From Halorussus sp. MSC15.2 (GTDB lineage: Archaea > Halobacteriota > Halobacteria > Halobacteriales > Haladaptataceae), in contig NZ_VSLZ01000010.1 of assembly GCF_010747475.1 (NCBI RefSeq), positions 1 through 64,000 on the forward strand: a DNA stretch of 64,000 nt. Direction: 5' to 3'. Under the pieces are notes generated by a model, which saw nothing but the letters and a program-made list of their open reading frames with translations, made no database searches and had not been told where the DNA came from. The first letter of the stretch is position 1; each line of letters begins with the position of its first letter. Positions 6,340-29,402 of the stretch are shown here, piece after piece. The position numbers and the translations under genes were made by a program.

Positions 6340-7863
6340 TCAGTCGGTCAGCTGTTCGCCTGCTCGCCGTTCTCCGGCCGGTCGGATCGTCAGGCCGGAC
6401 TCCTCGAGGATGTCGTGAATTCCATCGCGGTCGAACGACCGGCGGTCGTTCCGGACGTCACACCCGTACTGGTACAGGCATGAGGGGCAACCACTCTCGC
6501 AGTCGCATCGGAACTGCTCGCGCATGAGGTTGACCGCACGGTCGAAGGCCCGGAAGTCACCATCGGTGCGCTCAAAGAGCAACCGAGCGACGTCAGACCC
6601 GCCTTCCTGCGATTCGAACACGTCGACTCGCTCCTCGCCGACGTACTCGGCGATCTCCCGGACGTTGACCCCGCCGAGGTACTGAAGTGCGACACGGAGC
6701 CCGTGCGCCAGCGTGTGCGACAGGTCCCGGTCGTCGAGGTCGACCCTGACTCCTTGGGTGTCGTATCGGTAGCCGAGTCTGACGAACTCCGAATCGGCGC
6801 CTCGGCCGTCGGGGAAGTGCTCGGGATCGGCGCTGCACCGCCGTTCCTCGTCGTCGTCACGGTAGACGACTCCCGGGCAATTCTCCTCGCCGCAAACCTC
6901 GAACAGCGTCTCTCGGGCGTCGACCTCTCCGGACTTGTACTTCGTCTGGTAGCTGTCCGTGTGCAGGAGGACGGAGTAGTCGCCGTACTCGAGCGTCCCG
7001 AGTCGCTCGCCGTCGTCGGTCCGGAACTCGAACGTCCTGTCCGGGTCGAACGAGAGAATCGATGTCTCGCGCTCCGCGTAGGTGTTCTGCACCTCCTGGT
7101 TCGGTTCGTCGTGCAGGTATCGCGCCTCGTTGCCGTCCGACGTCAGTCGGAGGTTGTCGTGGTACGCGTCGACGGAGTCCAGCACCGCGAGGCGGCGCCG
7201 CTTTAGCGGAACGTCGTTCCCGCAGTCGCAACTGTCGGCGTCGAGGCTGTGAGTCGCGTGGCACGCGGGACACACCAATTCGTCCGCCAGACGCTCTCCG
7301 TCCGCCGTCTCGCGAACCGCTTCGCGGAGGTCGGAGCCCGACTTCTCGTCTAACCGAACGCGGGCGACGGTGTACGTCTCGCCCCCATCGAGGTACGCCG
7401 CGCCGGGATGCAACTCGGAGAGAGCCATCCGCATCGCCCGGCCGCTGTCCGCATCGCCCACATTGCGGCGGTTGTACCCCTCGTCGACGAGGGTCAGACC
7501 CGCGGTGCTGGCGACGCTTCTCATGGAGAAGTCGTACTTGCTCTCGCGGGACTCACGGAGGATATCGAAGTAGCTCGAACGACCGAGTTCGGAGAGGTAA
7601 TCGTCGAGGACGTCCATCCGTTCCTGCACTCCGCGGCGCTCGCGCATGATGCGAGCGCGCTCCTCGGTGTCTGCCCGCTGTTGGTCGCGCCGGAGTTGTC
7701 GGTTCCGCCGACGAAGTTTGGCCAGTTCGTCCTCTAGCGACCGCTCGTACTCGCGGTAGTGAGTGACGTAGCGCTCGTCGAAGCGGCGACCGCGTCGCCG
7801 ACGAGGTGGCCGAACTCCTCCTGCGCGTACCGGATCTGACCGTCGCAGTCGTCCCGTTCGCAC
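6340..7863 (-). CDS. Giant SF2 helicase A, C-terminal fragment with coiled coil and DUF1998/MZB-like region
   Basis: The first roughly 25 residues (Arg/Pro-rich) are out-of-frame noise. From RFDERYVTHYREYERSLE onward the protein aligns by eye with helicase B: a coiled coil (LAKLRRRNRQLRRDQQ), the shared motif MALSELHPGAAYL (helicase B has IALSELHPCASYL), a CPAC/CDC zinc pair, and the terminal cluster CDCESGCPSCLYQYGC. It is separated from the preceding ORF (ending at 7734) by one missing base near 7790, so it is the tail of helicase A and not a separate gene. The stop is 16 nt before the start of helicase B. Confidence 0.85.
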   Translation of the reverse strand: MRTGRLRRSDPVRAGGVRPPRRRRGRRFDERYVTHYREYERSLEDELAKLRRRNRQLRRDQQRADTEERARIMRERRGVQERMDVLDDYLSELGRSSYFDILRESRESKYDFSMRSVASTAGLTLVDEGYNRRNVGDADSGRAMRMALSELHPGAAYLDGGETYTVARVRLDEKSGSDLREAVRETADGERLADELVCPACHATHSLDADSCDCGNDVPLKRRRLAVLDSVDAYHDNLRLTSDGNEARYLHDEPNQEVQNTYAERETSILSFDPDRTFEFRTDDGERLGTLEYGDYSVLLHTDSYQTKYKSGEVDARETLFEVCGEENCPGVVYRDDDEERRCSADPEHFPDGRGADSEFVRLGYRYDTQGVRVDLDDRDLSHTLAHGLRVALQYLGGVNVREIAEYVGEERVDVFESQEGGSDVARLLFERTDGDFRAFDRAVNLMREQFRCDCESGCPSCLYQYGCDVRNDRRSFDRDGIHDILEESGLTIRPAGERRAGEQLTD

Positions 7864-10652
7864 GTGGTTCGGTCATCGTCGGCAGCGTACCGGCGCTCGC
7901 ACGACTCGCAGAACCGGTAGTCGAGCAGCGACTCGAGGTAGTCGGTGATTTCCGATTCGTAGTCGGAGACCACCTCCTCCAGCACGGCGAGGCTGGACTT
8001 CTCGCTACCGAGCGACAGCGTATCGGCCGACAGCGACATCACGTGAGTGAGTTTGCTCGCGTCCTCACGAGCGCTCTCAGAGCGGCCGTCGCGGCGGTGG
8101 TACGTGTCTCCTCCTTCGATGGAGCGACTGCGCCCGTGGTGGCTGACGTCCCACGGGACGGAGAAGTTGGCCGCCACGTAGTCGAAGACGGCCCACGACA
8201 GCGAGACGCGGAGGACTTCCTCGTTGTGCTCGTTTAGCGGCACCGGCGTCGGCTCCGCGTCGATGAGCTCCTCGGGGTGGTCGTAATAGTAGTAGTCGAT
8301 GGGGTTGCGCTGGCTCACGGAGTGAACCATCGACGAGTGGGAACTACGCCCGGCGCGCCCTACCCGCTGGAGGTAGGCGTTCATGTTCGGCGGCGTCCCG
8401 TACAGCAGCAGGGCGTCGAGCGACCCGATGTCGACGCCGAGCTCCATGGTCGGCCCCGACGAGAGGTGGTGGGGGTAGTTCTCCTCGCGGAAGAGGAACT
8501 CCAATTCGCGCCGCTTTCGCTTGTCGGTGGTTCCGAGGTACTCCTCGGAGACGAGTATGCGCGTCTGGGAGTACTCGACACGGTGGGCGCGCTGGGTGAA
8601 CCGCGGATGAGACGGCGACGCCCGTTCCGAAAGCGACGCGTCGGACGGCACCGCCGACTGACTGTCGAGGCTGAACTGGTGGTGGAGCGTCGTGTAATAC
8701 CGCTCGGTCTCGGGGTCGAAGCGGACGCCATCGCCTTCCCCTGCGACCGTCACTTCCAGCGCGGACGGGTCGAAGGAGACGTAGTCCTCCGAGTGGCCGT
8801 ACGAGAGGACGCTCCGTTCGACCAGTTCGCGGACCACCTCCGAAGCGCTCCGGTCGGGGCTCGAATCGGAGAGGTCCTCCACCCGACAGTCGTTCCCTTC
8901 GTCGACGAGTTCGCGAACGACAGCGCGTTCGTCTCCCGACAGCGCTCCAATGCCCGGTTCGAACCGAACGTCGAGGAGACCGACCTCGGTCAGCGGGTCG
9001 TCTCGCTCGCCCAGACGCTGGCTGTACGTGTGGGGCAGCGCTCGCCGTGTGAGTCGGTCTCGGAGCGCGTCGTCGTCGTCCCATCGCTTCCGCGGCTGGT
9101 CCTTCAGCCGGGACTTCAGGTCGAAATCGACGCTCCGCGCGACCTGTGGGGGCTCGAGCGCGTCGTTGAGTCCGTCGATGGTCTCGTCAGCGTCGATGAG
9201 GACCTCGTCGAATGAGGCCCACGACTCCTGTCCTCCAGCGGCTGAGGAGCATCTGATGAGCAGTTGGTCGAGCAGCGTCTCGACCTCGGGCTCGGAGAAG
9301 TCCCGGCTGAGCTCTTTCATGTCCCGATGGGAGTCCGCGAACGACAGGAGTTTGGCCGCCCGCTGTCCCTCGTCGTCGGCGACCACTCGCAGCAGGTACT
9401 GCGACGTCGTCGCGGCGAGGTTGTTCGGACTGCGCATCAGTTCGTCGAACCGGCGGCCCACTTCGTACCGGGCGTACGGGTGTGGACATGGGACCGCCGA
9501 CGGCTGAGAGCTCATCTCGTGAATCCAGCCGCGGGTATCGATGGTCTTGTAGGCTCGGTGGGAACCGGTCCGCGGGAGAATCTCCGGGTCGTCGCAATCG
9601 CACCCGTCGTTGCCGACGAAAGCGGTGTCGCACGACTGGCAGTGGCGGTCGTGACGGATCTCGAGCAGCGCCCGCTTCACGAACTCTTCCTCGCCGCAGT
9701 CGCATCGGCGAGGTTCGTCATCGAAGTGTAATCGGTCGCAGCCGTCGTTCGTACAGACCCACGGAACGTATCGACCTCCATCGGAGACCACCTCGAACTC
9801 CGAAGCGTCACAGCGTTCGCAGACGCGTTCGTCGGTGTGAGTCCGCCCACACTGCGGGTTGATGCAAGTGAATTCGTTCGGTCCCGTCCGGACGGTCCGA
9901 GAGTCGCACTCCCCGCAGTCACGAGTCGTCGTGCGTTCGCTCAAGCGCCCGCAGTCGCGACATCGGAGGGTCGGCTGGAACGTCGTTCTAATCATCTGCA
10001 CCGCGTCGCCGCGGTCGGCCTCGCATCGCTGACAGATCCGTTCCTCGTCCTGACCGACCGACCCGTGTTCTGTGGGCGTATAGGGGTCCGTTCGGTTGCA
10101 GGACGGGCAGTACCACCCGATCAGGTGTTCGTCGCTACAGTAGCGGCAGTACGTCGTGCGCGTGACGAAGTCGAACCCGCACTCGCGACAGGCGTCTTGC
10201 GGCGACCGATAGGTCGAGTCGCACGACGGGCACGCATAGAAGCCGTCGATCGGCCACGAGAACACGTGACTGCGGTTCTCCAGAATGCCCGAGAACTCGC
10301 CTAGAACGCGGACGTTTGATACTAGCGTCTCGGTCGCCGTCTCACCGAGTTTCAGTTCATCCGCTAACTGGTTGTGGAGCTCGGCGCGGGTGAGGGGTTC
10401 GTCGTAGAGCAACTGGTGGACGTATTGGACTGCCCGTGCGCCGGAGCCGCCGTCGTCTCTGGTCAGGTGGTCGAACAACGCGTCGCTCACCAACGTCTCT
10501 CGTCGCTCGCGGTCGTAGCTCGACGCGTCTTCCAGCGTGTAGTCGAACTCCTCCAGTCCCGGGACCGTATCGTCGGGGTCGGCCGCCGCTCGGAGGACGC
10601 GTTCAACAGACAGTTCGTGGGACGTCAGCTCCTCGGGAACCCGTGACGGCAC
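7734..10652 (-). CDS. Giant SF2 helicase A, middle part: zinc ribbons and RecA2 lobe
   Basis: A 972-residue frame homologous to the first two thirds of the helicase B C-terminal ORF. A Cys-rich region of about 380 residues with many CxxC knuckles is followed by RecA2 with MELGVDIG near 740 and QRVGRAGR near 765, then SVSQRNPIDYYY, also present in helicase B. The natural upstream continuation in this frame (ELDDAVPSRVPEEL) overlaps the end of the N-terminal ORF, and the two are joined by one base in a seven-C run at about 10669. The last residues (AASTSATSLTTASTSGR) are out of frame. Helicases A and B are paralogues in tandem, presumably from an old duplication. Confidence 0.87.
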   Translation of the reverse strand: MPSRVPEELTSHELSVERVLRAAADPDDTVPGLEEFDYTLEDASSYDRERRETLVSDALFDHLTRDDGGSGARAVQYVHQLLYDEPLTRAELHNQLADELKLGETATETLVSNVRVLGEFSGILENRSHVFSWPIDGFYACPSCDSTYRSPQDACRECGFDFVTRTTYCRYCSDEHLIGWYCPSCNRTDPYTPTEHGSVGQDEERICQRCEADRGDAVQMIRTTFQPTLRCRDCGRLSERTTTRDCGECDSRTVRTGPNEFTCINPQCGRTHTDERVCERCDASEFEVVSDGGRYVPWVCTNDGCDRLHFDDEPRRCDCGEEEFVKRALLEIRHDRHCQSCDTAFVGNDGCDCDDPEILPRTGSHRAYKTIDTRGWIHEMSSQPSAVPCPHPYARYEVGRRFDELMRSPNNLAATTSQYLLRVVADDEGQRAAKLLSFADSHRDMKELSRDFSEPEVETLLDQLLIRCSSAAGGQESWASFDEVLIDADETIDGLNDALEPPQVARSVDFDLKSRLKDQPRKRWDDDDALRDRLTRRALPHTYSQRLGERDDPLTEVGLLDVRFEPGIGALSGDERAVVRELVDEGNDCRVEDLSDSSPDRSASEVVRELVERSVLSYGHSEDYVSFDPSALEVTVAGEGDGVRFDPETERYYTTLHHQFSLDSQSAVPSDASLSERASPSHPRFTQRAHRVEYSQTRILVSEEYLGTTDKRKRRELEFLFREENYPHHLSSGPTMELGVDIGSLDALLLYGTPPNMNAYLQRVGRAGRSSHSSMVHSVSQRNPIDYYYYDHPEELIDAEPTPVPLNEHNEEVLRVSLSWAVFDYVAANFSVPWDVSHHGRSRSIEGGDTYHRRDGRSESAREDASKLTHVMSLSADTLSLGSEKSSLAVLEEVVSDYESEITDYLESLLDYRFCESCERRYAADDDRTTCERDDCDGQIRYAQEEFGHLVGDAVAASTSATSLTTASTSGR

Positions 10653-11775
10653 TGCGTCGTCGAGTTCTCGGGGGGGACTCGCTCACACGCGTGACGTCTA
10701 CTGCTCCACTCACCTTCTGGAACAGTTCGACGTCGTTCTCGACGGTCGCGCTGCTCGCGATGAGCTGTAAGTCGTCGATGTCCCGGCGCTCGCGCAGTGA
10801 CTGCACGCGCTTCATCAGCGTCGACGTGTAGCTTCCGAACAGGCCGTCGTACGTGTGAACCTCGTCGAAGACGAGGAACTCGGGCTCGTAGATGAACCGC
10901 TCGTGCTCGTCCTCGGCGTTGACGTTTGTGAGCCGGTAGTTGATTGTGTCCGGGTTCGTGAGCAGGATGTCGACGCCGTTCTCGAGGATGTCGTACTTCG
11001 TCAGCTTGAGGAAGTCGAGCGGCACGTCGTGCGGTTCGTCGTCTTCGCAGGCCGCCTTCTCAGGGATGAGTTTGAACCGGGCACCGGTGTTCCGGACGCG
11101 GACGCCGCCGCCGCAGTCCTGACACTTCTCGAGGTCGGGGTTGTACCCCGGGCACTCGAAGTGCCGGAACGTGGCGTTGAGGTAGCCCTCCGACCCGGAC
11201 TCGCTGACGTTCCGCGGCGTATCGCCGTCGTAGATGCCGACGGTGATGCGCTGCTTGGACTTCAGCTGACTGTTGATCTGGTACAGGTACTGGATGAGCC
11301 GCTTCAGTTGGTCCTGCGCGAGCGCCTTGGTCGGGTAGATGAGCGTGGCCTTGACGGTGGTGTCCTCGCCGGTCCCCTCGTACCGCTTCGCCTCCAGGAT
11401 GCGGTTGAGAATGGGGATGAGCCACGCCTCGGTCTTCCCTCTGCCCGTCGCGGCGGTGATAACGGTGTCGTCGCCGTCGAGGATCGCCTCGATACTACGC
11501 TCCTGGAAGTCGTACAGGCGCTCGAACCCAATTTCCGAGAACGCGCGACGGATGTGCGGTTCGAGGCGAGCCGACCGAGCGAAGTCGTCCCACGAGCGGT
11601 CGCTCCAGTTCGGGATGTCGAGCGCCTGAAGATACGGCCCGCGCATCCCCGTGACGTCGTTCTCACTGTCGGCGAGGCGATTGGCGACGCTGCGGGCTGC
11701 TCGCCCGCCGCGACCGATGAAGTAATCGCGGTAGGCGTTTTGCATCTGCTCCGCGCGGGCGACGGGGTCCTTCAT
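10603..11775 (-). CDS. Giant SF2 helicase A, N-terminal RecA1 lobe
   Basis: A RecA1 lobe with AATGRGKTE (motif I), YPTKALAQDQLKRL (Ia), DEVH (II) and SSATVEN (III), paralogous to the N-half of helicase B. It also shares GIYDGDT and LLTNPDTINYRL with that protein. The last 20 or so residues (RTRRRSAVTGSRG...) are out of frame, downstream of a C7 run. Deleting one C gives ESPRELDDAVPSRV and fuses it to the following ORF. The ATG at 11775 is 2 nt after the stop of the helical protein gene. Confidence 0.87.
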   Translation of the reverse strand: MKDPVARAEQMQNAYRDYFIGRGGRAARSVANRLADSENDVTGMRGPYLQALDIPNWSDRSWDDFARSARLEPHIRRAFSEIGFERLYDFQERSIEAILDGDDTVITAATGRGKTEAWLIPILNRILEAKRYEGTGEDTTVKATLIYPTKALAQDQLKRLIQYLYQINSQLKSKQRITVGIYDGDTPRNVSESGSEGYLNATFRHFECPGYNPDLEKCQDCGGGVRVRNTGARFKLIPEKAACEDDEPHDVPLDFLKLTKYDILENGVDILLTNPDTINYRLTNVNAEDEHERFIYEPEFLVFDEVHTYDGLFGSYTSTLMKRVQSLRERRDIDDLQLIASSATVENDVELFQKVSGAVDVTRVSESPPRTRRRSAVTGSRGADVPRTVC

Positions 11776-11777
11776 GG

Positions 11778-12551
11778 TCAGAGACTGAGTTCGACCGCTG
11801 ACTCAAATTCGTCGACTCGCTTCATCTCCTCCAGCGTCTCCATCGAGACGTCTGCGAGGGTGAGCTTCTGGGACTTGCTGAGGGTCTTCACGTCCTCGAT
11901 GGTGTCGTCAGACAGGTCGTGCTTCTCCTGGAAGTCGTCGAAGCTCTGGAGCGACTGGTGCTTCTCCCAGTCGCTCGTTGCGTTCTCCCACTCCGAGACA
12001 AAGTTCGACGCGCTCCCGCTGGTGTCCATCAACTCTCGGGTGAGCAGCGAGTGCATGTGGTTGAGCGTGCGGGAGAAGTCGGCGTTCTGCCCGCCGAGGA
12101 TCTTCTGTAACTCCTCTGCTGCCTCCACCTTCGTTGTCCACGCTGACCGCTCACTCTCAAGTTGGTTTTCGATCGTTTGGATGACGCTCTTTACCTGCTT
12201 CTTCGCCGACCGAATCTGTTTTAAGTGCGTCTCGACTTCGTTCTCGCCCACGTCGTCGCTCTGAACGTTTTCCAGGAGATCGTCTTGGGTCACGCCGGTG
12301 GCGTTCTCGATCGCCTGAACGGCACCGGCGGTCATCGTCGGTGCCGAACCGCCGAAGGCTTCCTCCAAGACCGTTTTGTAGTATTTCAGATCGCGGAGGC
12401 GAGTGGCGAGCTCGTCGAACTCGCTGTTAATCTCGCTGATGTTCGAGCGAGCGACCGAGACGTGGTACTTCGTGTTCTGTGCCTGCTTGTGCTCCTTGGC
12501 CTTGTCGTCGAGGGCCTCGACGGCCGTGGGTAGAGATTTGGAACCGGACAT
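11778..12551 (-). CDS. Helical, coiled-coil-like operon protein of unknown function
   Basis: A 257-residue, strongly acidic, almost all-helical protein with no Cys and no membrane segment. Heptad-like stretches (VETHLKQIRSAKKQVKSV) suggest a coiled coil. It sits exactly between the ATPase (stop 1 nt upstream) and helicase A (start 2 nt downstream), so stoichiometric co-expression is likely. A bridging or adaptor subunit between ATPase and helicase is a reasonable inference; its position is similar to that of the small DpdI-type protein in Dpd operons. I do not recognise a Pfam-level domain. Confidence 0.8.
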   Translation of the reverse strand: MSGSKSLPTAVEALDDKAKEHKQAQNTKYHVSVARSNISEINSEFDELATRLRDLKYYKTVLEEAFGGSAPTMTAGAVQAIENATGVTQDDLLENVQSDDVGENEVETHLKQIRSAKKQVKSVIQTIENQLESERSAWTTKVEAAEELQKILGGQNADFSRTLNHMHSLLTRELMDTSGSASNFVSEWENATSDWEKHQSLQSFDDFQEKHDLSDDTIEDVKTLSKSQKLTLADVSMETLEEMKRVDEFESAVELSL

Positions 12552-12552
12552 C

Positions 12553-15500
12553 TTACAGGTCCTCCGTCAGGGAGATTATCTCCTGGCGCTTCTGCTCGTA
12601 GTCGCTGTACTCGTCGAGTTGCTTGATTCGGTGTTCGAGGTCTGCTCCGGTGGCGTGGTCCTGCTCTTGGAGGTCGTCGATGAGCGCGTCGAACGCTTCG
12701 TAGATCTCCCAGGCGGCCTGCTCGTTGCGACTTCTGGCGAAGTCGTGGAGTCGAGCGACGAGGGTCGTGCCTGTCGCCCCGTCCATGTTCCGGAACCGCT
12801 CTACGTCCTCGCGGAAGTCCGCGAGATTCAGGTCCTCTGGCGACTCCGTCAGCGTCTCGTAAGCGTCCTCGTAACTCGACTTAATCGGCACGTCCATTGC
12901 ACCCGCGCACTCGTAGAGGGTCTCGAACCATTCGGCGAGGTCGTCGACCGTGTGACCGCCGTCGTACCACCGTTTGACTGGTTCTAGCGCTTCCTGAATG
13001 TGGGACGCGTCTTGGTCGACGGTCAGACGCTGGAGTTCGGCCGCGTAGTCAGAGATCCGGTCGAACAGGCTCGACACCTTGGTGTTGGCTCCGTTCCGCG
13101 TCGTCCCGACCTTGTACGCGTCGGCCAGGTCGTCGGTGTCTATCATCATCGCGGCGTCGACGTGGGACTCGAAGTCCTCCGCTACCTCCCTGCACGCCGC
13201 GGACAGTCGCTCGTAGTCCACGACGTTCGACTTGAGAAGGAAGAACCCCTCGACGAGTTTCGCGATGTCGGTAGACGACATCGCGAGGTCGCCGAACGCC
13301 TGTCCGAACGCGCTGTCCCGGTCGAAGTTCTCCACGATGGGCTTCCCGTACGACCGGTTGCTGTCGTACTCCTCGAAGACGATTTCGGCGGGAACCCGGT
13401 CCTCGTCGGCCTCTACGCCACGCGCTCCGTTGATCAGGAAGAACTGAGCGAGCACGAGCGTCTTCTCGATGGTGAGTTCCTTGGGGAGGCACGCCTCGAT
13501 TTCCTCGCGCATCTCGTGTTTGAACCGGGCGACCTCGGTGTCGGCCCACGCTCGCAACTGGTCGAAGTTGGTCGTCTGCGAGTCGAACACGTCGAACAGT
13601 CCGTACTCAAGCATCGGGGTGTAGAGGTCGGCGTGCTCCGCTCCCCACTCGAGTTCGACGTCGATGCTGGACTGTCGTTGCTGGTCGCCCTGTATGGACA
13701 CCGGGATGCTGTCGCCGCGGGCGTAGTAGATTCCACCGGCGGACCTCGTCGAAGCGTTCGGGTTCCCCAAGCGAGTGGGTTCGTGCCAGCGCTCAAGGAC
13801 GGCGACGGCGCCGTCGTGTAGCGTGTCCGAACTAGGATACTCCTCGCCGGCGGTCACCCAGTCTTGGAACTCCTGGAACTTGCGCTGGCGCTCGCGCTCC
13901 TCTTCGGTGAGTTCGGGTTCCTCGATGACGGTGACTCCCTCGTCACCGTTGCCTCCGGTATCCTCCTCTTCGTCCTCGCCGTCGCTACCCGATTCGTCAC
14001 TCTCCTCGTCCTCTCGGTCCTCTCCGTCTTCCTCGTCGGCCTCTACGGCGTGCTCCGGGACCGGCGGATTCTTGATCTTGTCGAGTACGGCGCTCCCCTT
14101 GCCTTTGTCGAACACCACGTGGTCGCCTTTGACAGGGGCGACGTCGTCGTCCGGGAGTTCGATTCCAAACGCCTCGAAGATACCGACCTTCACCCCGATT
14201 CCCTCCTCGACCGGGACGCCGTACCAGCGGCTGACGTCCTGGTAGATCTGGTCGTAGTTCATGTCGATCTCGAACGTCGGGGTGTCGACGAACGAGTTCG
14301 ATTTCATCGCCTCGTACGGCAGGAGCGACGACTTGAGGCAGTGTTTCACGACCCGGAGCAGTAGCAGGCGCGGCGTCTTCCGTTTACTGCCCTCGTCGTT
14401 CAACTGCCGGTAGGCGACATGTACGAAGCGCTCGTTGAATGGGTACATGTCGTCGAAGGCCGCTTCGATGTCGTCGGGCGCCCCGTCGACGTTGGAGTTG
14501 CGCTTGATGGCGTTCAGGTACGACCGGGCCAGCGCGACGGAGGCGTCATCGTCGAGGAAGTACGCTTCCCCGTTCTCGTCCGTCATCGTGAGAAAGCCCT
14601 CCGCGCGTCCCTTCATATACGTCGCCGCGTCTTCTCGGGCGAGTGCGTCGTCGATGTTGTCCTGCTCCCACCCGACGGTCCAACCGAGGACGATATCGTA
14701 GTTGCTGCTGCTGAGCTCGAAGATATGGTCCAGAAGTTGTTCCTTGAGGACGCTGAACGTCGTCAGGTCCTCGCAGATGAGCACCGGGCGGATGCCCTGT
14801 TCCTGGTACATTTCCGAGTACTCCTGCAACTGCTCTTTGAACTCTCCGACGAGGTTCCGGGAGAGGTACTCGTGGGCTTCGTTCTTCAGCACCGAGTACA
14901 GCACGTCCTTGTTCTCGGTGAGCTTGTCGCCGAAGCTCAGTTGTAACCGCAGGTCCCGGTAGTCGGTGCGCGTCAGGAGGTTGAAGTCAGGATTCTCGTC
15001 GCGGGTCTCCAGGGCGTCTTGGTAGTCTTGGATGTTCTTCGCGAAGATTGCCCGCAGGTCGCTCTCGCCGCCCCGGTTCTCCGTCAACTCGCCCAGTTCC
15101 GCCTCGGTGAGGTGCTCGGTGGACCAGATGCCGCGCATGTACTCCACGATGGCACTCGCGGCGTCTTCCGGGTCGAGGTCGTCGATGTTCCTGACGTCGG
15201 TGTCCACGTCCAGGGGCTCGGTGAGGACATCGATTATCTGGTCCATTCGAGTCTGGCTGCGGGATACGTGAAGGGCTACGTAGTCCTCGATGCCCTGTTC
15301 GTCCTCCCCGTAGCCGTTGACTTGGTACTTCGTCCACTCGCAGAGTTGGCTCTTCCCCGACCCCGGCTCGCCGCGTAGGATGAAGATGCGGTTGGGATCG
15401 TCTAGGTTAGACGCCGTGACGGCGTCCAGGAAGTTTTCTTGAGTGACGAAGTCACCTGACACGCCGAGCGGAGTTAGGGTGTCGGCGTAGATGCGGTCGA

Positions 15501-15642
15501 TGTCGACGTGGGTCTCCCTGAACTGTTCGGGGGTCTTCTTCTTCGTGTGTGCCTCCGACGTGATGAAGTGGTCGACCTCGTCGTCGTCCCAGTAGTGGGT
15601 CATTTGTTCGTCGGCCGGGGGCTCTTGGACTTGCTGACTCAT
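12553..15642 (-). CDS. Large P-loop ATPase, 1029 residues (DpdH/BrxC-like in architecture)
   Basis: Walker A is GEPGSGKS at residues 91-98, with a Walker B-like VLICEDL at about 287-293. The stretch near residues 560-610 is a very acidic low-complexity linker (runs of E, D, G, S). The rest is helical with no other clear motif. The ATG at 15642 overlaps the stop of the preceding gene as ATGA, and the next gene starts 1 nt after its stop. The architecture (small winged-helix-like protein, then roughly 1000-residue ATPase, small helical protein and DUF1998-type helicase) resembles the G-H-I-J part of Dpd islands, and big AAA-like ATPases also occur in BREX (BrxC/PglY). This is a resemblance of layout, not a demonstrated homology. 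Confidence 0.85.
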   Translation of the reverse strand: MSQQVQEPPADEQMTHYWDDDEVDHFITSEAHTKKKTPEQFRETHVDIDRIYADTLTPLGVSGDFVTQENFLDAVTASNLDDPNRIFILRGEPGSGKSQLCEWTKYQVNGYGEDEQGIEDYVALHVSRSQTRMDQIIDVLTEPLDVDTDVRNIDDLDPEDAASAIVEYMRGIWSTEHLTEAELGELTENRGGESDLRAIFAKNIQDYQDALETRDENPDFNLLTRTDYRDLRLQLSFGDKLTENKDVLYSVLKNEAHEYLSRNLVGEFKEQLQEYSEMYQEQGIRPVLICEDLTTFSVLKEQLLDHIFELSSSNYDIVLGWTVGWEQDNIDDALAREDAATYMKGRAEGFLTMTDENGEAYFLDDDASVALARSYLNAIKRNSNVDGAPDDIEAAFDDMYPFNERFVHVAYRQLNDEGSKRKTPRLLLLRVVKHCLKSSLLPYEAMKSNSFVDTPTFEIDMNYDQIYQDVSRWYGVPVEEGIGVKVGIFEAFGIELPDDDVAPVKGDHVVFDKGKGSAVLDKIKNPPVPEHAVEADEEDGEDREDEESDESGSDGEDEEEDTGGNGDEGVTVIEEPELTEEERERQRKFQEFQDWVTAGEEYPSSDTLHDGAVAVLERWHEPTRLGNPNASTRSAGGIYYARGDSIPVSIQGDQQRQSSIDVELEWGAEHADLYTPMLEYGLFDVFDSQTTNFDQLRAWADTEVARFKHEMREEIEACLPKELTIEKTLVLAQFFLINGARGVEADEDRVPAEIVFEEYDSNRSYGKPIVENFDRDSAFGQAFGDLAMSSTDIAKLVEGFFLLKSNVVDYERLSAACREVAEDFESHVDAAMMIDTDDLADAYKVGTTRNGANTKVSSLFDRISDYAAELQRLTVDQDASHIQEALEPVKRWYDGGHTVDDLAEWFETLYECAGAMDVPIKSSYEDAYETLTESPEDLNLADFREDVERFRNMDGATGTTLVARLHDFARSRNEQAAWEIYEAFDALIDDLQEQDHATGADLEHRIKQLDEYSDYEQKRQEIISLTEDL

Positions 15643-16505
15643 TGTCGGGTGAGGAGCTGGTTAAGGGGGTATTCGTAGGCCGTTTCGTCCGGGCGTGGGC
15701 GGATTGAGACGTGGGTCACGCTTCGCCGGTTTCCGCGAACGTCGTCGTTCAGGTTCTGCGGCGGCAGTTCGACGCTGTTCTGCGCGTCTCCCGGAGCGGA
15801 GAGCGACAGCACGTCATTATCGTCCATGTTCCGCAACACGTCGGCGACTGCTGGGTGGACTCGCCGGTTTCCCGAGCGCTCGCTGAACACTGTGAACAGG
15901 TTGTCGTTGATCCAGTCGAGGGCCCGACGGAACTCCCCGTCTTCGACGGTGACGTCACCATACTCGGCGCCCTCTCCCGATTCCATAGGGGCTAGGGCTA
16001 ACGCGTCGTGCACGAGCGCCCGACAGGGGCTAAGCACGAGTCCGTCTTCGGTCTCGGAGACGAGACCGAGTTGTTCGCACAGCGTCACCCACATGTCCAG
16101 TTTCTCGTCGGTCCAGCTGAAGTCGTAGTCCGTCTCGCGCTTCAGGATAGTGCGGAGGTTGTCACGGCCGGCATCTACCGTTCTGCTCTCCTCGCTCATC
16201 AGCGCGCGGTGAATGTCGGCGAAGTGGGACTGGCGGCCTTCCTGCTGATTACAGTGGTATAGCAACCGCGCCTCGAAGGCGAGGCCCTCGAAGTGTCGGT
16301 CGTTGATGCGCTCGACCGTATCCCTGATATCGCCGCTGGGACTCTCTACGAGGTCGACGGTGTTCAGGAATCGAAGACTCTCCTCAACGTGGTCCGTCTT
16401 CTGTCCGCCGCCCTCTGCGGGGCGTCCGAACTTGCTTGTGACTTCAGAGACGCTCGACGGCCCCTGAAGAGAGCCGTAGATGTGTTTGAGTTCCGGTGCT
16501 CGCAC
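15639..16505 (-). CDS. Small winged-helix-like operon protein (true start probably ATG at 16567)
   Basis: A 288-residue frame, soluble, with helix-turn-helix-like helices near the N-terminus (HIYGSLQGPSSVSEVTSKFG). The apparent start is GTG at 16505. A better start is the ATG at 16567, which overlaps the upstream stop as ATGA and is followed by a high-GC3 stretch (MSTTYTPAVDKPDKLLTGFI). One missing base near 16505 would join it to APELKHIYGSL. If so, the protein is about 308 residues. Its stop overlaps the start of the large ATPase. Its role may be DNA recognition or regulation of the complex (inference); its size and place are like DpdG. Confidence 0.72.
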   Translation of the reverse strand: MRAPELKHIYGSLQGPSSVSEVTSKFGRPAEGGGQKTDHVEESLRFLNTVDLVESPSGDIRDTVERINDRHFEGLAFEARLLYHCNQQEGRQSHFADIHRALMSEESRTVDAGRDNLRTILKRETDYDFSWTDEKLDMWVTLCEQLGLVSETEDGLVLSPCRALVHDALALAPMESGEGAEYGDVTVEDGEFRRALDWINDNLFTVFSERSGNRRVHPAVADVLRNMDDNDVLSLSAPGDAQNSVELPPQNLNDDVRGNRRSVTHVSIRPRPDETAYEYPLNQLLTRQ

Positions 16506-16563
16506 GAGATGAACCCGGTGAGTAGTTTGTCCGGTTTGTCTACCGCCGGCGTGTACGTCGTGC

Positions 16564-17428
16564 TCATGTGTCCTCCTGGTGTCGGTGGCGATAATCGTCT
16601 AACCGATTTTCTTCGAAATCAACACGTTCCAGCATGTCCAGCATGCTGTTGGCGACCTCCTGGGTAGGTCCGCGCTCCGTCCACGAGCGGAGCGCTCCCG
16701 GATGCGCTCGGAGTAGTCCTCCAGCACCCGGTCGGCGTCCTCGCGGATGAAGTAGTATAGCGGTTCCCACGCGGGACTGTCCGCTGGCACCCGCGTGTAG
16801 TCGAATAGCGCGGGGATTGACCCGGCGTCGAGACCCGCCCGCTTGTGATGCGCGGAAACCTGATGATAGAACAGGTTCTGGGTCGTCGAAAGCGGAAGGT
16901 CGGAGTCGAGGTTATACCGCAAGTACCGCTTCAGCATCCCCTTGTAGTCGGTGACCGTGCACTCGAACTCGTCGATGAACGACTTGCCCGGTTTCTTCGT
17001 ATACCGGGGCATCTCCGGTGTGCTCGTGTCGGTCATTAGGACGTAGGGGACGCCCTCCGGTCGCTCTCGGAGCAACCGGCGCACGATGTCCTGATCGTCG
17101 AAGGTGCTGTCTTCGTCTCGCAGTTCGCCGGTCAGCATTTCCTGGGTGATGTAGTGAACGATCGGGAATTCGATTCCGTCTACTCCGTTCTCGCGCAGGT
17201 CCTCGCTTGCGAGGTGTTCGTATTGGGTGAGTCGTAACCCGTTGTCGTAGATGCCGGGATGGACGACTCTGTTGAGACCGAACTCCGCGATGAACGGGAG
17301 CGACCTGAGTTGTGCCCGGGCCTGCTTACCCGTCTTCTGGAGTTGCGGGTCTCGGACTACGAGTACCGAGTCCCGCGTCCGACGAAGTCGGATAGCGCGG
17401 ACGGGCCCGAATCGGGCGGGTATGTCAT
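16564..17428 (-). pseudogene. First gene of the helicase operon, unrecognised, interrupted by two one-base frameshifts
   Basis: Reconstructed from three frames: ATG at 17428 (MTYPPDSGPSALSDFVGRGT), a shift near 17358 into VLVVRDPQLQKTGKQARAQL, the long middle section, and a shift near 16690 into SWTERGPTQEVANSMLDML, ending at the TGA that overlaps the next ATG. Repairing each break by one base gives about 288 residues. The perfect ATGA coupling at its end supports a real gene. HHKRAGLD fits the HxKx4D pattern of phospholipase D enzymes, but no GSxN or second copy follows, so I do not call it PLD. Because the rest of the operon is intact in content, sequencing error is as likely as decay. Confidence 0.65.
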
Positions 17429-17867
17429 CTTCCTAGGTGTTTGGGAGTCGATTCGGCGCCGATTGTGGGATGGACGCCGTTCGTAAGCATTCGATATCTG
17501 TAGCTATCGCTACCTGCGATTTAGCCCTTTCAGGCCTCGCCGTGCCGAATGCTTCCATCCTTCACTTATCCGGCCAAATACTTAAAATTGTTGGATATAT
17601 TATAGGAATAATGATACCACTCCTCGTCCGTGGGATGGTGATCCCGGACGGAACGTGCGAACAGTTGACGGGTTAACCCCTTACCACCATATAATTACCG
17701 ACTACGCAACAATTGAAGTTGAGTTGCACTACTTTCGAACAGTCGGCGAGGTGGTTCCGAAGATTTTTCGGGGCGATACGGTACTGCGGCAGTTTGCGTT
17801 CGAATATGGTGGTGACTGTTGCACTATTCCGGAACAGTAACAGTACCCCTCGCCGAACACTTCACGT
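17429..17867. promoter_or_regulatory. Divergent intergenic region between the helicase operon and the CARF regulator
   Basis: No convincing gene. An AT-rich patch (TACTTAAAATTG, GGATATATTATAGG) near 17580-17612 can supply a TATA box for the leftward operon, leaving a leader of over 100 nt. The rightward half holds two near-identical 21-bp sites (17723-17743 and 17818-17838), listed separately. Confidence 0.5.
17723..17838. promoter_or_regulatory. Pair of operator-like sites upstream of the CARF-HTH gene
   Basis: Sites at 17723-17743 and 17818-17838 both begin GTTGCACTA and end ACAGT, with 17 of 21 positions identical. Each is partly palindromic (CTATTCCGGAACAG in the second). They are 95 bp apart start to start, about nine helical turns, and the second ends 29 bp before the regulator start. 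This fits autoregulation by a dimeric HTH protein, possibly with looping. The binding protein is inferred. Confidence 0.45.
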
Positions 17868-18521
17868 ATGCGTACGTACCTCGCACCGCTTGGTTTCGAC
17901 AGTAGACGCGTAGTCCGACCAGTTCTGAGTGAAGGACTGGACGAGGGTGATCGGGTCGTGTTGCTACAACCGGTCGGTGGTTCAGAACGCGGCGAGGACG
18001 CGTTCGAGGAAGTCGAGAACGTACTAACTCAGGTCGTCCCCGCTCTCGATTTACAGATCGAACATCTCCCTCATAACGACTTCGTGGAGACGACTCTGTA
18101 CTGCGCCGACCTGATACAGAATGCAGAGGGAGAGATTATCGTTATTCTCGGCGGCGGCGCCCGAGAAATTCTACTTCCGTTGACCGTTGCGACATTTGGA
18201 AGCGACGTTTTCATCGACACGATTCTCCAAGTAGGTGACATAGATAGTAGCGTCCGACGAGTTCCCCAACTTAACCTACGCGGTAACGTCACGGATGCCG
18301 AGTGGAAACTCCTCGCGGACATCGCCGACCTAGATACTCTATTGTCTATCAGCGAGATAGCTAACCGATTAGATAAGTCGAAGAGCACTATCGCGCGGCA
18401 TGTTCCCACATTAGAATCGAAGGGATTCGTCCTCACCGAGAAAGAAGGCCGGAAGAAAACCGTCGATGTTACTGATAGTGGTAGGGTCTTCCTGAGAACG
18501 AGTACAAATCAGAGATTGTGA
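17868..18521 (+). CDS. CARF-domain winged-helix regulator, Csa3-like
   Basis: 217 residues. The N-terminal roughly 135 residues form an alternating beta/alpha fold like CARF domains: a first strand ending in a Gly-Phe-Asp loop (LAPLGFDSRR), VVLLQPVGG, and the glycine-rich ligand loop GGGARE preceded by IIVILG. The C-terminal roughly 75 residues form a winged HTH (ISEIANRLDKSKSTIARHVPTLESKGFV). Csa3 proteins bind cyclic oligoadenylate and regulate cas genes in archaea. Here there are no cas genes or repeats in the window; the neighbour is the divergently transcribed helicase/ATPase operon. A ligand-sensing regulator of that operon is the natural inference. Confidence 0.82.
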   Translation: MRTYLAPLGFDSRRVVRPVLSEGLDEGDRVVLLQPVGGSERGEDAFEEVENVLTQVVPALDLQIEHLPHNDFVETTLYCADLIQNAEGEIIVILGGGAREILLPLTVATFGSDVFIDTILQVGDIDSSVRRVPQLNLRGNVTDAEWKLLADIADLDTLLSISEIANRLDKSKSTIARHVPTLESKGFVLTEKEGRKKTVDVTDSGRVFLRTSTNQRL

Positions 18522-18882
18522 TTTCGATTCGGAATCTCTTCCAAAAAGGATACTCCTCGGCCGAAAATCTGGATTCAGATGGAAATGACGGTCCGGTCGT
18601 TTTCTTCTGGCGTCGATTCGATACTTAAATGGAATGTTGAAAACGGTTACCACTACCTTCCGTGGCGCGATCCACGTAGGTCGGCCCTCCTTTGGTAGTG
18701 TTAGCAAATCTGGCCTATCTGGGCAATAACTATGGCCTTCTAGTCTGTTCCTCCAACTGGATGATCTGCATCGCGTATTGGGACACATAGCATACTCCGA
18801 GGGATATCATCCGCGTCTTTGTACCGAAGATACGCCCCGGTAGTAACCGGGATTAATTGTGGACGCGTTCGGATACACCATT
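18522..18882. other. Intergenic stretch without a convincing gene
   Basis: About 360 bp. One imperfect hairpin, CGTGG/CCACG at 18661-18676 with flanking CCT/AGG pairs, could mark the 3' end of the CARF gene transcript. Nothing else was seen. Confidence 0.4.
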
Positions 18883-19173
18883 ATGACCAGAATCACACAG
18901 TCAACCCGTCTCGAACAAGTCGAACACATTCTCGGAAGCAGAACGAATATACTGGATTTTGCAGTTAAAGGCGAGAATGATTACTATACATGGGATGAAA
19001 GCGAAGACGCAGACTGGACTATTGAAGATGTAGACTACGTCGAAAACGTCGAGGAAGATCGCTTTATTCTGTACCTCCAGGGGGAGTACTTCACTTGCGA
19101 CATAGAGGCCTCACGTGAAGAAGGAAACAAGGGTCCCGTGCGGTGTTGGTGTGAAGAATCGAAAGATAAATAG
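18883..19173 (+). CDS. Small acidic protein of unknown function
   Basis: 96 residues from ATG 18883 (an in-frame ATG at 18859 would add 8 residues). Very acidic and aromatic-rich in the middle (YYTWDESEDADWTIEDVDYV), with three Cys in the C-terminal third (FTCD, RCWC), possibly a small metal or redox site. No membrane segment. I do not recognise it. It stands alone between the CARF gene and the lipoprotein genes. Confidence 0.55.
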   Translation: MTRITQSTRLEQVEHILGSRTNILDFAVKGENDYYTWDESEDADWTIEDVDYVENVEEDRFILYLQGEYFTCDIEASREEGNKGPVRCWCEESKDK

Positions 19174-26139: not shown

Positions 26140-27888
26140 ATGAGTACCAACACTGACGATCACGAGTATAGTGCACGACGAATCCATCAGTCGCTCGGCG
26201 GGACGACCGCGTTCTTCCAGGGATACACTATCGGCGAACTCATGCTGTTTGTGGGCGTGGCGTTCGTCACGCTCATCGGTGCAGCACTCGTCCCGGCGAC
26301 GTTCACGATTCCACTCCTCGGGCTCGGCATCATGGTCAGTCTCCTCCTCGGCTTGCTCCACAAAGTGAAGCCGTCCTACCTCTGGCTGACCGAGTGGCTG
26401 GCCGCACGCCTTGGCTGGGCAGTCAAGAACAAAGAGTACACTCACGGCGAAGACAATAGTGAAGTCCGCTACCTAACCCGCGTTGGCCGAGTCTTCCCGC
26501 ACGCCATTGAGCGGTCGGACGGCGCGCTCGTCGGTGCAATGCGAGTCGAGCCAGCGAACATGGCACTCGAAGACGACGAGGCGTGGGCAAAAGCCGTCGA
26601 GTCGCTCTCCGAGTTCGTCAATTCGACCGTCGACTTCCCCGTCAAGTTCTACATCACTAGTCGGGAGGTCGACCAAGACGATGCCGTCCGTGAACACCAG
26701 CAACGCCTTGGGGATGTTGACGTTCGTTCCCGGCCCGTGCTCAAACGACTGCTCGAAGAGTACATCACCACTAACACTAACCAGAACGGCGATATCGACT
26801 CCGAAAGCACGACCATCCGCGAATACTACATCATCACCGCAGTTCGTGATGCTGACGTTGAGCATCTCAACGAAACCGGGGATAGTGTCCTCGCCTATCT
26901 CGCTGATGTCCCTGTCCTGGGACGTGTGTTCGGCCGGTTCCAGTCCGACGGCCTCTCGGAGGCCGAACGCGACCGCCTCAAAGAAGACAAACTGGAATCT
27001 CGTCTTGGCCAGATTCGTCGGGGTGGGTCGTCGCTCTACCGCTGTTCGGTGAGTCCGGTCGACGCCTACGACCTCGCTCGCGTGACGAAGGAATTCTGGA
27101 CGGGACGCACGGAGGAGTACGGCGACATTTCCGACGCAATCGGGACGTTCCCGGTCGTCGCACACGGTCTTAGCGACGACGTGCCATCGACTCCTAACCC
27201 GGACACCGTCGTTGACGCGATGGACACCGACGCCGCAGAATCGAATACTGAGACAAACGTCGCCTACGAGGACCGCCTCGATGATACGTCGACAATTCAC
27301 CAGTCGATTATCGCCCCATCGTCGGTCGACTGGGAGACGACCTACGCTGTCCTCAACGACGAGACGTACGTCCGAACGTTCTGGATCGAGCAGTTCCCGG
27401 AGGAACCTGCCAACGGGATGCTGGAGCGTCTCTTGCTAGAAACGGACCTGCAGACGGACATCAGCATCCACCTTGACCCATTCGATACCCAATCGGCCGA
27501 GGACATGATGGCCGATTGGATCTCGGATCTGAAGGTCAACCAGCACGACGCGAATAGCCTCAAAGCCGAGGATCTCCAGAAGGACATCGACCGTGGGAAG
27601 TTCATGCGGTCGCTGGTCCGCGCGAACAAGGCCTCGTTCTACCGTGGCGGTGTCTTCATCCGACTCTCCGCCGAGAGCAAGCAGGAACTCGACAATCAGA
27701 CGACGCGCCTCCGCTCGATTGTCAAGGACGCCCCTGCGAACTGTACGCTCAAGGTGGCGAATCGCTGGCAGGAGAAGGGGCTTGCGACGGTGTCGCCGCT
27801 CGGCGCGAACGAACTCGGCCGTGACCGAATGTCGACGCTGACCAATCAGCAGTCGGCGCGATGTTCCCATTCTCCTCGAACTACATGA
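26140..27888 (+). CDS. virB4: VirB4-like ATPase, N-terminal half with PrgI-like membrane segment
   Basis: The N-terminal 75 or so residues contain two membrane segments (ELMLFVGVAFVTLIGAALVP; LLGLGIMVSLLLGLLHKV), as in PrgI-domain proteins fused to VirB4 in Gram-positive bacteria and archaea. About 480 residues typical of the VirB4/TraC N-terminal domain follow. The frame breaks after NELGRDRMSTLTNQ. Adding one G after CAG (near 27850) gives AVGAMFPFSSNY and continues into the next ORF with the P-loop. The full protein would be about 1085 residues and energises the secretion channel at the membrane. Confidence 0.82.
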   Translation: MSTNTDDHEYSARRIHQSLGGTTAFFQGYTIGELMLFVGVAFVTLIGAALVPATFTIPLLGLGIMVSLLLGLLHKVKPSYLWLTEWLAARLGWAVKNKEYTHGEDNSEVRYLTRVGRVFPHAIERSDGALVGAMRVEPANMALEDDEAWAKAVESLSEFVNSTVDFPVKFYITSREVDQDDAVREHQQRLGDVDVRSRPVLKRLLEEYITTNTNQNGDIDSESTTIREYYIITAVRDADVEHLNETGDSVLAYLADVPVLGRVFGRFQSDGLSEAERDRLKEDKLESRLGQIRRGGSSLYRCSVSPVDAYDLARVTKEFWTGRTEEYGDISDAIGTFPVVAHGLSDDVPSTPNPDTVVDAMDTDAAESNTETNVAYEDRLDDTSTIHQSIIAPSSVDWETTYAVLNDETYVRTFWIEQFPEEPANGMLERLLLETDLQTDISIHLDPFDTQSAEDMMADWISDLKVNQHDANSLKAEDLQKDIDRGKFMRSLVRANKASFYRGGVFIRLSAESKQELDNQTTRLRSIVKDAPANCTLKVANRWQEKGLATVSPLGANELGRDRMSTLTNQQSARCSHSPRTT

Positions 27889-29402
27889 TGATGGACGACG
27901 GCGTCGAATACGGCTACCACGGCCATAACGGTTCACCGGTCCGCATCAATCCGTGGGACCTCGAAACCGGCCATAGCGAACTCGTCGTCGGAATGCCCGG
28001 CGCTGGGAAGACGTTCGGCGACATTATGCGTCACTTGCGGATGATGAAACGCCAGCAGGATACGATGCTGGTCATGATTGACCCGGTCGGCGGGTTCAAA
28101 GGAATCGCCGACGCGCTCAACGCGAAGACCATCTCTGTCGGGGGAGACACACAGCTGAATCCACTGGAGATTCGTGAGACATCCCGAGAAGTCCTCGAAT
28201 CCGACGACAGCATCTCACCGTTGTCTGCGAAGAAAGACGAAGTGTACGCCGTACTTGAAAACTTCCTGACCGCACGCGATATCAACCTCGGAACCGAGAC
28301 AGGTGTCCTCTCGTACGTCATCGACGAAGCCTACCGGCAGGCTGGTGTCGTCGAGGATGACGTCAGCACTCACACGCCTGAGAACTCGCCGACAATGACG
28401 GATGTGCATCGAATTCTTGCGGACATCGCTGAGAACCCGGACGAACACAATATCGCTACGTCCGAGTCTGCCCGCGAGCGCGCCGCCCAGTACGCCGACG
28501 AACTCGCTATCGCGTTCCAACCATTCCGTGAAGGAGGTGCGTACGCGAATCTCTCGGAGCGATCAGAGATCGATATCCTCGAAGGTGACAACAAGGTCGT
28601 CTACATTGACCTCGGCCAAATCGAAGGAAGCGCGTCGGGAATAGACCGCCAAACGTTCCTGATGCAGTTGCTCCTCTCGACAGTCTACCAGCAAGCGAAG
28701 AAGACCGACCGAAACGTCGAACTCGCTATTGATGAGGCGCACTACCTCTTTGAGGATCAGGCGAATCTCGATTTCCTCGAAACCGCGTTCCGTCACCAGC
28801 GCCACGCTGGTCTTCGGATGGTGCTGCTCTCACAGACCGCCCAAGAGTTCTACGAGACCGACCAAGCTGAGAAAATCATCGGCATGTGTCCGATCAAGGT
28901 CTTCCACAAATTGCCGGACTTAGACGAGGAGACGGCAGACAAGATTGGGCTGACCCGTGAGCAACGGAAGTACGTGCGGAGTGCCGACGCTGGTAAGGAA
29001 GACCTCGGATATAGTCAGGCACTCGTCCGCGTCGAGGAACACGGGACGTACCCGTTACACGTCGTGGCCGACGAGTTCGAGAAGCGCGTCATCGACTACG
29101 AACCCGACGACCGAGAGTTCATCCAGCAGGCGATTAACGCCGAGCCTGAGGAGTTCGTTACCTTCGAGGGGTTCGTCGAGAACAAGGCCCGCCACAACGC
29201 ACTCACGAACCGATTCGACCTCCGTGAGGAAGAAGCGACACGCCTCCTCGAAGACGATTTCTCACAGCAAGAAGTCGTGGACGCAGTCGTAACACAGACA
29301 CTCGGAACAACATCCGAAGCAACTGCTCGGACGGATGGTGGGAGCGCACCGGCAGAGAGCGACCAAACTGAAACAATGACTGAGGAGGATGACCGTGTCT
29401 AA
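27861..29402 (+). CDS. virB4: VirB4-like ATPase, C-terminal motor domain
   Basis: The RecA-like motor of VirB4: Walker A GMPGAGKT near residues 44-51, Walker B-like ELAIDEAHYLFED near 290, and the VirB4 motif LLSQTAQEFYE. The apparent ATG start falls inside the domain (the MFPFSSNY motif just before the P-loop), so it is the second half of the preceding gene, joined by one missing base. TGAGGAGG at 29381-29388 near the 3' end is the ribosome binding site of the next gene, which overlaps the stop by 14 nt. Confidence 0.86.
   Translation: MFPFSSNYMMMDDGVEYGYHGHNGSPVRINPWDLETGHSELVVGMPGAGKTFGDIMRHLRMMKRQQDTMLVMIDPVGGFKGIADALNAKTISVGGDTQLNPLEIRETSREVLESDDSISPLSAKKDEVYAVLENFLTARDINLGTETGVLSYVIDEAYRQAGVVEDDVSTHTPENSPTMTDVHRILADIAENPDEHNIATSESARERAAQYADELAIAFQPFREGGAYANLSERSEIDILEGDNKVVYIDLGQIEGSASGIDRQTFLMQLLLSTVYQQAKKTDRNVELAIDEAHYLFEDQANLDFLETAFRHQRHAGLRMVLLSQTAQEFYETDQAEKIIGMCPIKVFHKLPDLDEETADKIGLTREQRKYVRSADAGKEDLGYSQALVRVEEHGTYPLHVVADEFEKRVIDYEPDDREFIQQAINAEPEEFVTFEGFVENKARHNALTNRFDLREEEATRLLEDDFSQQEVVDAVVTQTLGTTSEATARTDGGSAPAESDQTETMTEEDDRV

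Follow-up and report, generated by a model that had tools for sequence, protein, structure and literature searches.

A CARF winged-helix protein as the probable dedicated regulator of a BRIGADE Type II-like operon in haloarchaea

CARF domains are usually treated as sensors of the alarm molecules of type III CRISPR systems. In Csa3, a regulator with a CARF domain and a winged helix-turn-helix (wHTH), each of Phe10, Phe14, Gly96 and Arg98 is needed for the binding of cyclic tetra-adenylate (cA4) (PMC8844856), and a CARF-type transcription regulator outside CRISPR is found in the sigma-54 activator RtcR (PMC7790460). BRIGADE Type II, in the available parts of the preprint that describes it (Bell et al. 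2025, PMC12458937), occurs in haloarchaea only and comprises two ARMADA-like YprA helicases, a Dpd-like deazaguanine cluster and a PLD nuclease. Within those parts of the main text, CARF appears in the reference list only and never together with BRIGADE, no antiviral activity of BRIGADE is reported, and no passage on its regulation is found. Here we describe a Csa3-type CARF-wHTH gene in the first 64,000 nucleotides (the window) of contig NZ_VSLZ01000010.1 of Halorussus sp. MSC15.2. From the computed fold, the dedicated divergent linkage, the conserved operators, the conserved pocket and a leader RNA, we consider it probable that its product serves a haloarchaeal BRIGADE Type II-like defense system as a dedicated transcription factor gated by a ligand.

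The gene is an intact open reading frame (ORF) of 217 amino acids at 17868–18521 on the plus strand. The N-terminal half of the protein is a CARF domain (Pfam Csa3_N, 56 bits), the C-terminal part is matched by several wHTH families, and the PADLOC CARF3 profile PDLC01852 covers the full protein at 280 bits. Its AlphaFold2 (AF2) model, with a predicted local distance difference test score (pLDDT) of 91.7, is best matched in the PDB by Csa3 (2wte) and by cA4-bound Csa3 (6wxq and 6w11) at template modeling (TM) scores of about 0.70–0.77, followed by other CARF proteins. A PDB search with a profile of 35 relatives retrieved the three Csa3 sequences held in that database (E about 3e-8), and the single sequence as a query retrieved weak wHTH matches only. 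These results bear out the original prediction, made from the letters of the window, of a CARF fold with a GGGARE loop (residues 95–100) and a winged HTH. The span 17429–18521 that it gave to the regulator needs to be divided, since position 17429 is where the divergent gene A starts, the regulator gene begins at 17868, and 17429–17867 is the intergenic region common to both. The protein shares with Csa3 of Sulfolobus solfataricus (PDB 2WTE/6WXQ) the full-length fold, the dimer-pocket motifs GF(D/N) and G-G-x-R and a MarR-like wHTH, but its gene has no CRISPR link, an Arg replaces Phe14 of the first cA4 motif, and no cas10 was found. Like RtcR it appears as a CARF-type transcription regulator outside CRISPR, whereas RtcR is bacterial and has an AAA+ sigma-54 output instead of a wHTH. 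Annotation pipelines name such genes “csa3: CRISPR-associated” though the adjoining operon is not a CRISPR operon. No homolog was found in the phage collection searched.

A search of 391 Halobacteria genomes for CARF homologs gave 71 places, of which 69 loci were read. The gene is divergent from a BRIGADE operon in 28 loci, from a type I-D CRISPR operon (cas6-cas10d-cas7-cas5-cas3-cas4-cas1-cas2) in 39, and from neither in 2. It is also evident that sequence identity is discontinuous: the 17 homologs at 70–78% are all BRIGADE-linked, and the next, at 41% and below, are mixed. In the reverse search, started from the ATPase gene in 40 genomes, a CARF gene adjoins the operon in 18 of 18 close, 10 of 12 intermediate and 0 of 10 remote operons. 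The gene-neighborhood comparison proposed with the original prediction therefore shows co-occurrence in all 18 close loci and in 28 of the 30 loci of the operon group, and the link between the CARF gene and the BRIGADE operon is not due to chance. A scan of GTDB r220 contigs with an alignment as the query yielded 15 BRIGADE, 29 type I-D and 3 other loci among 47; its species overlap with the 391-genome set, so that it adds a second method but not full independence. The same scan with the single CARF protein as the query gave no match. In the scan, the CARF genes of Methanoperedens are all I-D-linked. This suggests an older I-D association and recruitment of the regulator by BRIGADE. On the CARF tree, the BRIGADE-linked proteins cluster strongly (2 label changes, compared with 21.6 in shuffles), and a single origin of the BRIGADE-linked proteins is compatible with the data (p of the approximately unbiased test, p-AU, 0.44), though not demonstrated. 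The CARF-wHTH proteins of haloarchaeal type I-D loci are 35–41% identical to the protein studied here and are likewise encoded divergently beside the first operon gene (cas6), but they adjoin a CRISPR operon and fall in separate clades of the tree. The best reading is that the BRIGADE-linked proteins and the type I-D regulator share an ancestry.

The genome of MSC15.2 is 98.4% complete. A Cas1 search of it gave no match, a Cas10 palm/Csm1 search gave nothing that reached the cut-off, and a scan of the whole 85,156-bp contig detected no CRISPR-like array; the same scan detects arrays in control I-D loci. The cas10d-cas7-cas5-cas3 genes present beside 39 homologs are absent here. The claim that no cas genes or repeats lie in the window can thus be extended to the whole contig for arrays and to the genome for Cas1 and Cas10, and no CRISPR-Cas locus stands just outside the window nor, as judged by Cas1, elsewhere in the genome. 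Together with the co-occurrence described above, this supports the view of an orphan, non-CRISPR CARF-wHTH protein dedicated to a non-CRISPR defense operon. With the models PF22335 and TIGR02578, Cas10 is over the cut-off in none of the 28 genomes with a CARF-BRIGADE locus. Among the 67 genomes searched, the Cas10 palm is over the cut-off in two (G361 and G338), both with CARF genes outside BRIGADE, which indicates that the search works in haloarchaea. TIGR02578 also gave many partial matches at its N-terminal end (19–24 bits against a cut-off of 170 bits), and these were not scored as Cas10.

The divergent neighbor was taken in the original prediction to be a helicase/ATPase operon, and such an operon does run on the minus strand from 17428 downward, in the order A, B, C, D, helicase 1, helicase 2 and PLD nuclease. 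Its gene content fits a haloarchaeal BRIGADE Type II-like system, sharing with the system of the preprint (PMC12458937) the haloarchaeal host, the tandem YprA-type helicases, the Dpd-like deazaguanine cluster and the PLD nuclease. The helicases match PADLOC DruE, DrmA and DpdJ and Pfam DEAD and Helicase_C, and are possibly ARMADA-like. DpdA and TGT lie on the same replicon, queDE-folE-queC adjoin in relatives, and the PLD nuclease is the last gene of the operon. The helicases of the preprint are called “nearly identical”, whereas those studied here are of similar length and motifs and 37% identical over their full length (as measured on a homolog of helicase 2). With the Dpd system, which places 7-deazapurine in DNA, the locus has in common a DpdA homolog, a DpdJ-like helicase, a weak DpdH match and a PLD nuclease, but DpdG, DpdI and DpdK are not recognized by profile, and the helicases are two large tandem proteins. 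Neither this BRIGADE/Dpd-like DNA-modification class nor the occurrence of other CARF homologs in type I-D loci had been foreseen in the original prediction. PbeABCD and Dnd phosphorothioation were ruled out as identities of the operon, their gene content being mismatched. The whole layout, including the CARF gene, is found on a complete plasmid of Salinigranum marinum (locus L155), in the order PLD, helicase, helicase, D, C, B, A, CARF, HNH endonuclease, BREX-type ATPase, hypothetical, TGT, four genes, DpdA-like, queD, queE, folE and queC. The HNH endonuclease gene there (L155:20782-21816) is located between the CARF gene and the modification cassette.

Alignment of the divergent regions has a single conserved stretch beside the CARF start, the candidate operator O1, ACTGTTGCACTATTCCGGAACAGT, located at 17815–17838, 53 to 30 nucleotides before the start codon. 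ACTGTT-N12-AACAGT with at most one mismatch occurs at the same position in all 18 close BRIGADE loci (shuffle expectation at two mismatches, 0.011 per locus) and in 5 of the 10 intermediate loci; a scan of the type I-D loci found it in 1 of 39. When the 4.4-Mb genome is scanned with up to three mismatches, O1 is the sole site. The second-best motif site on the 85-kb contig is a weaker copy of O1, the candidate operator O2, TGAGTTGCACTACTTTCGAACAGT, at 17720–17743. A second site is present at −146 to −159 in 17 of the 18 close loci, with several scores falling within the shuffled range. The position and symmetry of O1 and O2 suggest that the CARF protein binds them. In type I-D loci (e.g., L061, L065, L066 and L067), short palindromes of the GTTGCA-N6-TGCAAC type stand about 50 nucleotides before the CARF gene and are possibly the I-D operator.

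A promoter-like element of the operon, CCAACAATTTTAAGTA, with a putative B recognition element (BRE) and TATA element, lies on the minus strand at 17579–17594 and corresponds to CCGACA..TTTTATG conserved in the alignment of close loci. Between this element and gene A, at 17450–17555 on the minus strand, is a candidate structured leader RNA, made up of a three-way junction and of a hairpin whose loop, CCATCCCAC, is conserved. The covariance model R1 scores 104 bits at this locus and detects 16 of the 18 close loci. Two-sided changes are seen in 12 of the 26 pairs, a number reached in 0 of 500 shuffles (the alignment was fitted to the model, and the 9-sequence training alignment gives the same covariation result), and slid controls fall to 24–38% paired. 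There are 31 G-U pairs against 9 A-C mismatches, which favors the strand of gene A. The model exceeds 40 bits nowhere else in the 391 genomes, and weak matches of 24–33 bits occur in a few other genomes (including G057:C4:119664 and G100:C2:363372). Rfam gave nothing above the gathering score; its sole match, to a snoRNA, is at chance level.

In the most economical model, the CARF protein holds operon expression down until a ligand is produced by infection or damage. The pocket at the interface of a CARF dimer would be the sensor of this nucleotide-like ligand, the C-terminal winged helices would bind the ACTGTT-N12-AACAGT operators, and the protein would thereby control both its own gene and the operon A-B-C-D-helicase1-helicase2-PLD, the transcript of which would begin with the conserved folded leader. 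Operator binding, regulation in both directions, repression in preference to activation and the nature of the ligand are what we infer in this model, and several observations weigh against it. O1 adjoins the CARF start, about 390 nucleotides from gene A, and control of the operon is thus less direct than autoregulation; 5 of the 10 intermediate loci have no such site at two mismatches or fewer; BRIGADE-like loci without CARF exist, some with a TFIIB paralog next to gene A, and the class can accordingly do without CARF; two Cas10 models could miss a synthase of very divergent sequence; and six frameshifts hit genes A, B and both helicases, so that the system may be inactive in this strain. Autoregulation could even be the only local role of the protein, which would act elsewhere in trans as a leftover CRISPR Csa3 regulator hitch-hiking beside BRIGADE, as the distance of 30–53 nucleotides between its strongest operator and its own start codon and the type I-D neighbors of other homologs might suggest. 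We regard this as improbable, since no other good operator copy is present on the 85-kb contig and no second O1-like site in the genome at up to three mismatches, since a Cas1 search of 30 genomes with the BRIGADE operon is positive in just 6, which do not include MSC15.2, and since the gene has been kept beside the operon at 70–78% identity across many genera. A better case can be made for an activator, ligand-dependent or constitutive, that acts from O2 upstream of the operon promoter: O2 is about 130 bp upstream of the TATA-like element, and triggering of CRISPR adaptation is reported for Csa3a of Sulfolobus islandicus (PMC7480081). Autorepression, however, fits better with the place of the strong site, right beside the start of the CARF gene itself; activation is possible, yet we do not favor it. 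Similar weight is given to the possibility that the locus of this strain is a decaying pseudo-operon, with a regulator that has no function here. Compared with Halorussus litoreus (L034), single-base indels are located at about 17378 and 16695 (gene A), 16505 (gene B), 10676 and 7785 (helicase 1) and 5166 (helicase 2), and they represent either decay or sequence error. Decay would agree with a 120-kb chromosomal sample in which broken ORFs are just slightly more frequent than in a complete genome, and with a truncated CARF relic without the operon on the Haloferax mediterranei plasmid pHME132 (L156:15001-15351; C-terminal half only, 67% identical). On the other side, CARF, C, D, PLD, DpdA and TGT all have unbroken reading frames, and the contig has one more split gene pair (26140–29402), which may be a seventh frameshift and suggests indel errors in this contig.

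Regarding the signal, the second cA4 motif (small-small-G-hydrophobic-R) is found as G95 G96 G97 A98 R99, with G96, G97 and R99 invariant among the BRIGADE-linked proteins. The first (hydrophobic-G-F-(N/D)-x-polar-F) reads L8 G9 F10 D11 S12 R13 R14 and so lacks its final Phe. G9, F/Y10, D11, S12, R14, R17, G96, G97, R99 and D124 vary little or not at all among the 28 BRIGADE-linked proteins, and the pocket is more conserved in these than in the CRISPR-linked proteins. The pocket is therefore under selection for some ligand, which is probably not Cas10-made cA4. The original prediction tied the fold to regulators that sense cyclic oligoadenylates; as the signal for this protein, these find no support in the form given. 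It is unlikely that the protein senses cA4 or cA6 as canonical Csa3 does, supplied by type III CRISPR of the same cell or by an unrecognized synthase. The fold is that of cA4-bound Csa3, and the equivalents of its Gly9, Phe10, Gly96 and Arg98, distributed over the two cA4 motifs, are retained (among the cA4-binding residues, as Phe/Tyr10, Gly97 and Arg99 here); but Arg stands in place of Phe14, without which Csa3 does not bind cA4, in each of the 28 BRIGADE-linked proteins, and Cas10 does not exceed the cut-off in any of the 28 genomes. Cyclic di-AMP (c-di-AMP), a common archaeal dinucleotide, or, by analogy with RtcR, the end or a fragment of an RNA would be an equally doubtful candidate. Haloferax volcanii makes c-di-AMP and cannot do without it (PMC6741144; PMC8646023), the CARF domain of RtcR binds tRNA 5′ fragments with a 2′,3′-cyclic phosphate (PMC7790460), and the absent stacking residue Phe14 might suit a ligand with fewer stacked bases. 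c-di-AMP is, however, a housekeeping signal and not an infection alarm, and both candidates are leads, not results. SMODS cyclases were rejected as a general source of the ligand, being over the cut-off in 4 of the 28 genomes, with MSC15.2 not among these.

These results tie a large CARF clade to a non-CRISPR defense operon and its relatives to type I-D systems, in genomes nearly all of which have no detectable Cas10, and raise the testable question of what CARF regulators sense where no cyclic oligoadenylate synthase is present. BRIGADE gains from this analysis a regulator, a specific candidate operator and a candidate leader RNA. We tentatively raise the possibility of a Cas10-independent CARF second-messenger pathway that switches on BRIGADE by way of a regulator module that it and type I-D CRISPR-Cas have exchanged, together with a new class of leader RNA.

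The operon genes, all on the minus strand, are as follows. Gene A (16563–17428, ends approximate) encodes about 305 amino acids, and the AF2 model of its product has a pLDDT of 42. Gene B (15639–16567, start approximate) encodes about 309 amino acids. Gene C (12553–15642) encodes an AAA-type ATPase of 1029 amino acids with a weak N-terminal DpdH match (PDLC02891, E 1.4e-6, obtained on the H. litoreus homolog), and gene D (11778–12551) a protein of 257 amino acids. Neither B nor D has a family assignment. Helicase 1 (6340–11775) and helicase 2 (862–6323) are single ORFs of 1842 and 1816 amino acids, respectively, in relatives; both have many CxxC motifs and a cysteine-rich C-terminus. The PLD-family nuclease (about 657 amino acids) has its N-terminal part at 1–860 and the remainder at 84058–85155, as located by tblastn. 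Its assignment comes from a homolog at locus L077 with PLDc_2 at 24.7 bits (Pfam cut-off 27), a weak DrmC match and an HxK...GSxN motif. Since this gene runs across both ends of the contig, the contig is probably a complete circular replicon. The modification cassette lies on the same replicon at 77424–83599 and consists of DpdA (83599–80618, E 3.8e-73), TGT, a 298-amino-acid protein and a BrxC/D-type ATPase.

In the BRIGADE-like loci without CARF, the TFIIB paralogs that adjoin gene A (L113:6978-7973, minus strand; L116:7843-8799, plus strand) are possible alternative regulators, and in some such loci a UvrD-like helicase-nuclease adjoins gene A. The position next to gene A thus looks like a slot for interchangeable genes. 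Downstream of the CARF gene, a small acidic protein of 104 amino acids is encoded at 18859–19173 on the plus strand. Fourteen other BRIGADE or BRIGADE-like loci carry relatives of it (48–66% identical) in their modification part, either near DpdA or the que genes or in the stretch from these to PLD.
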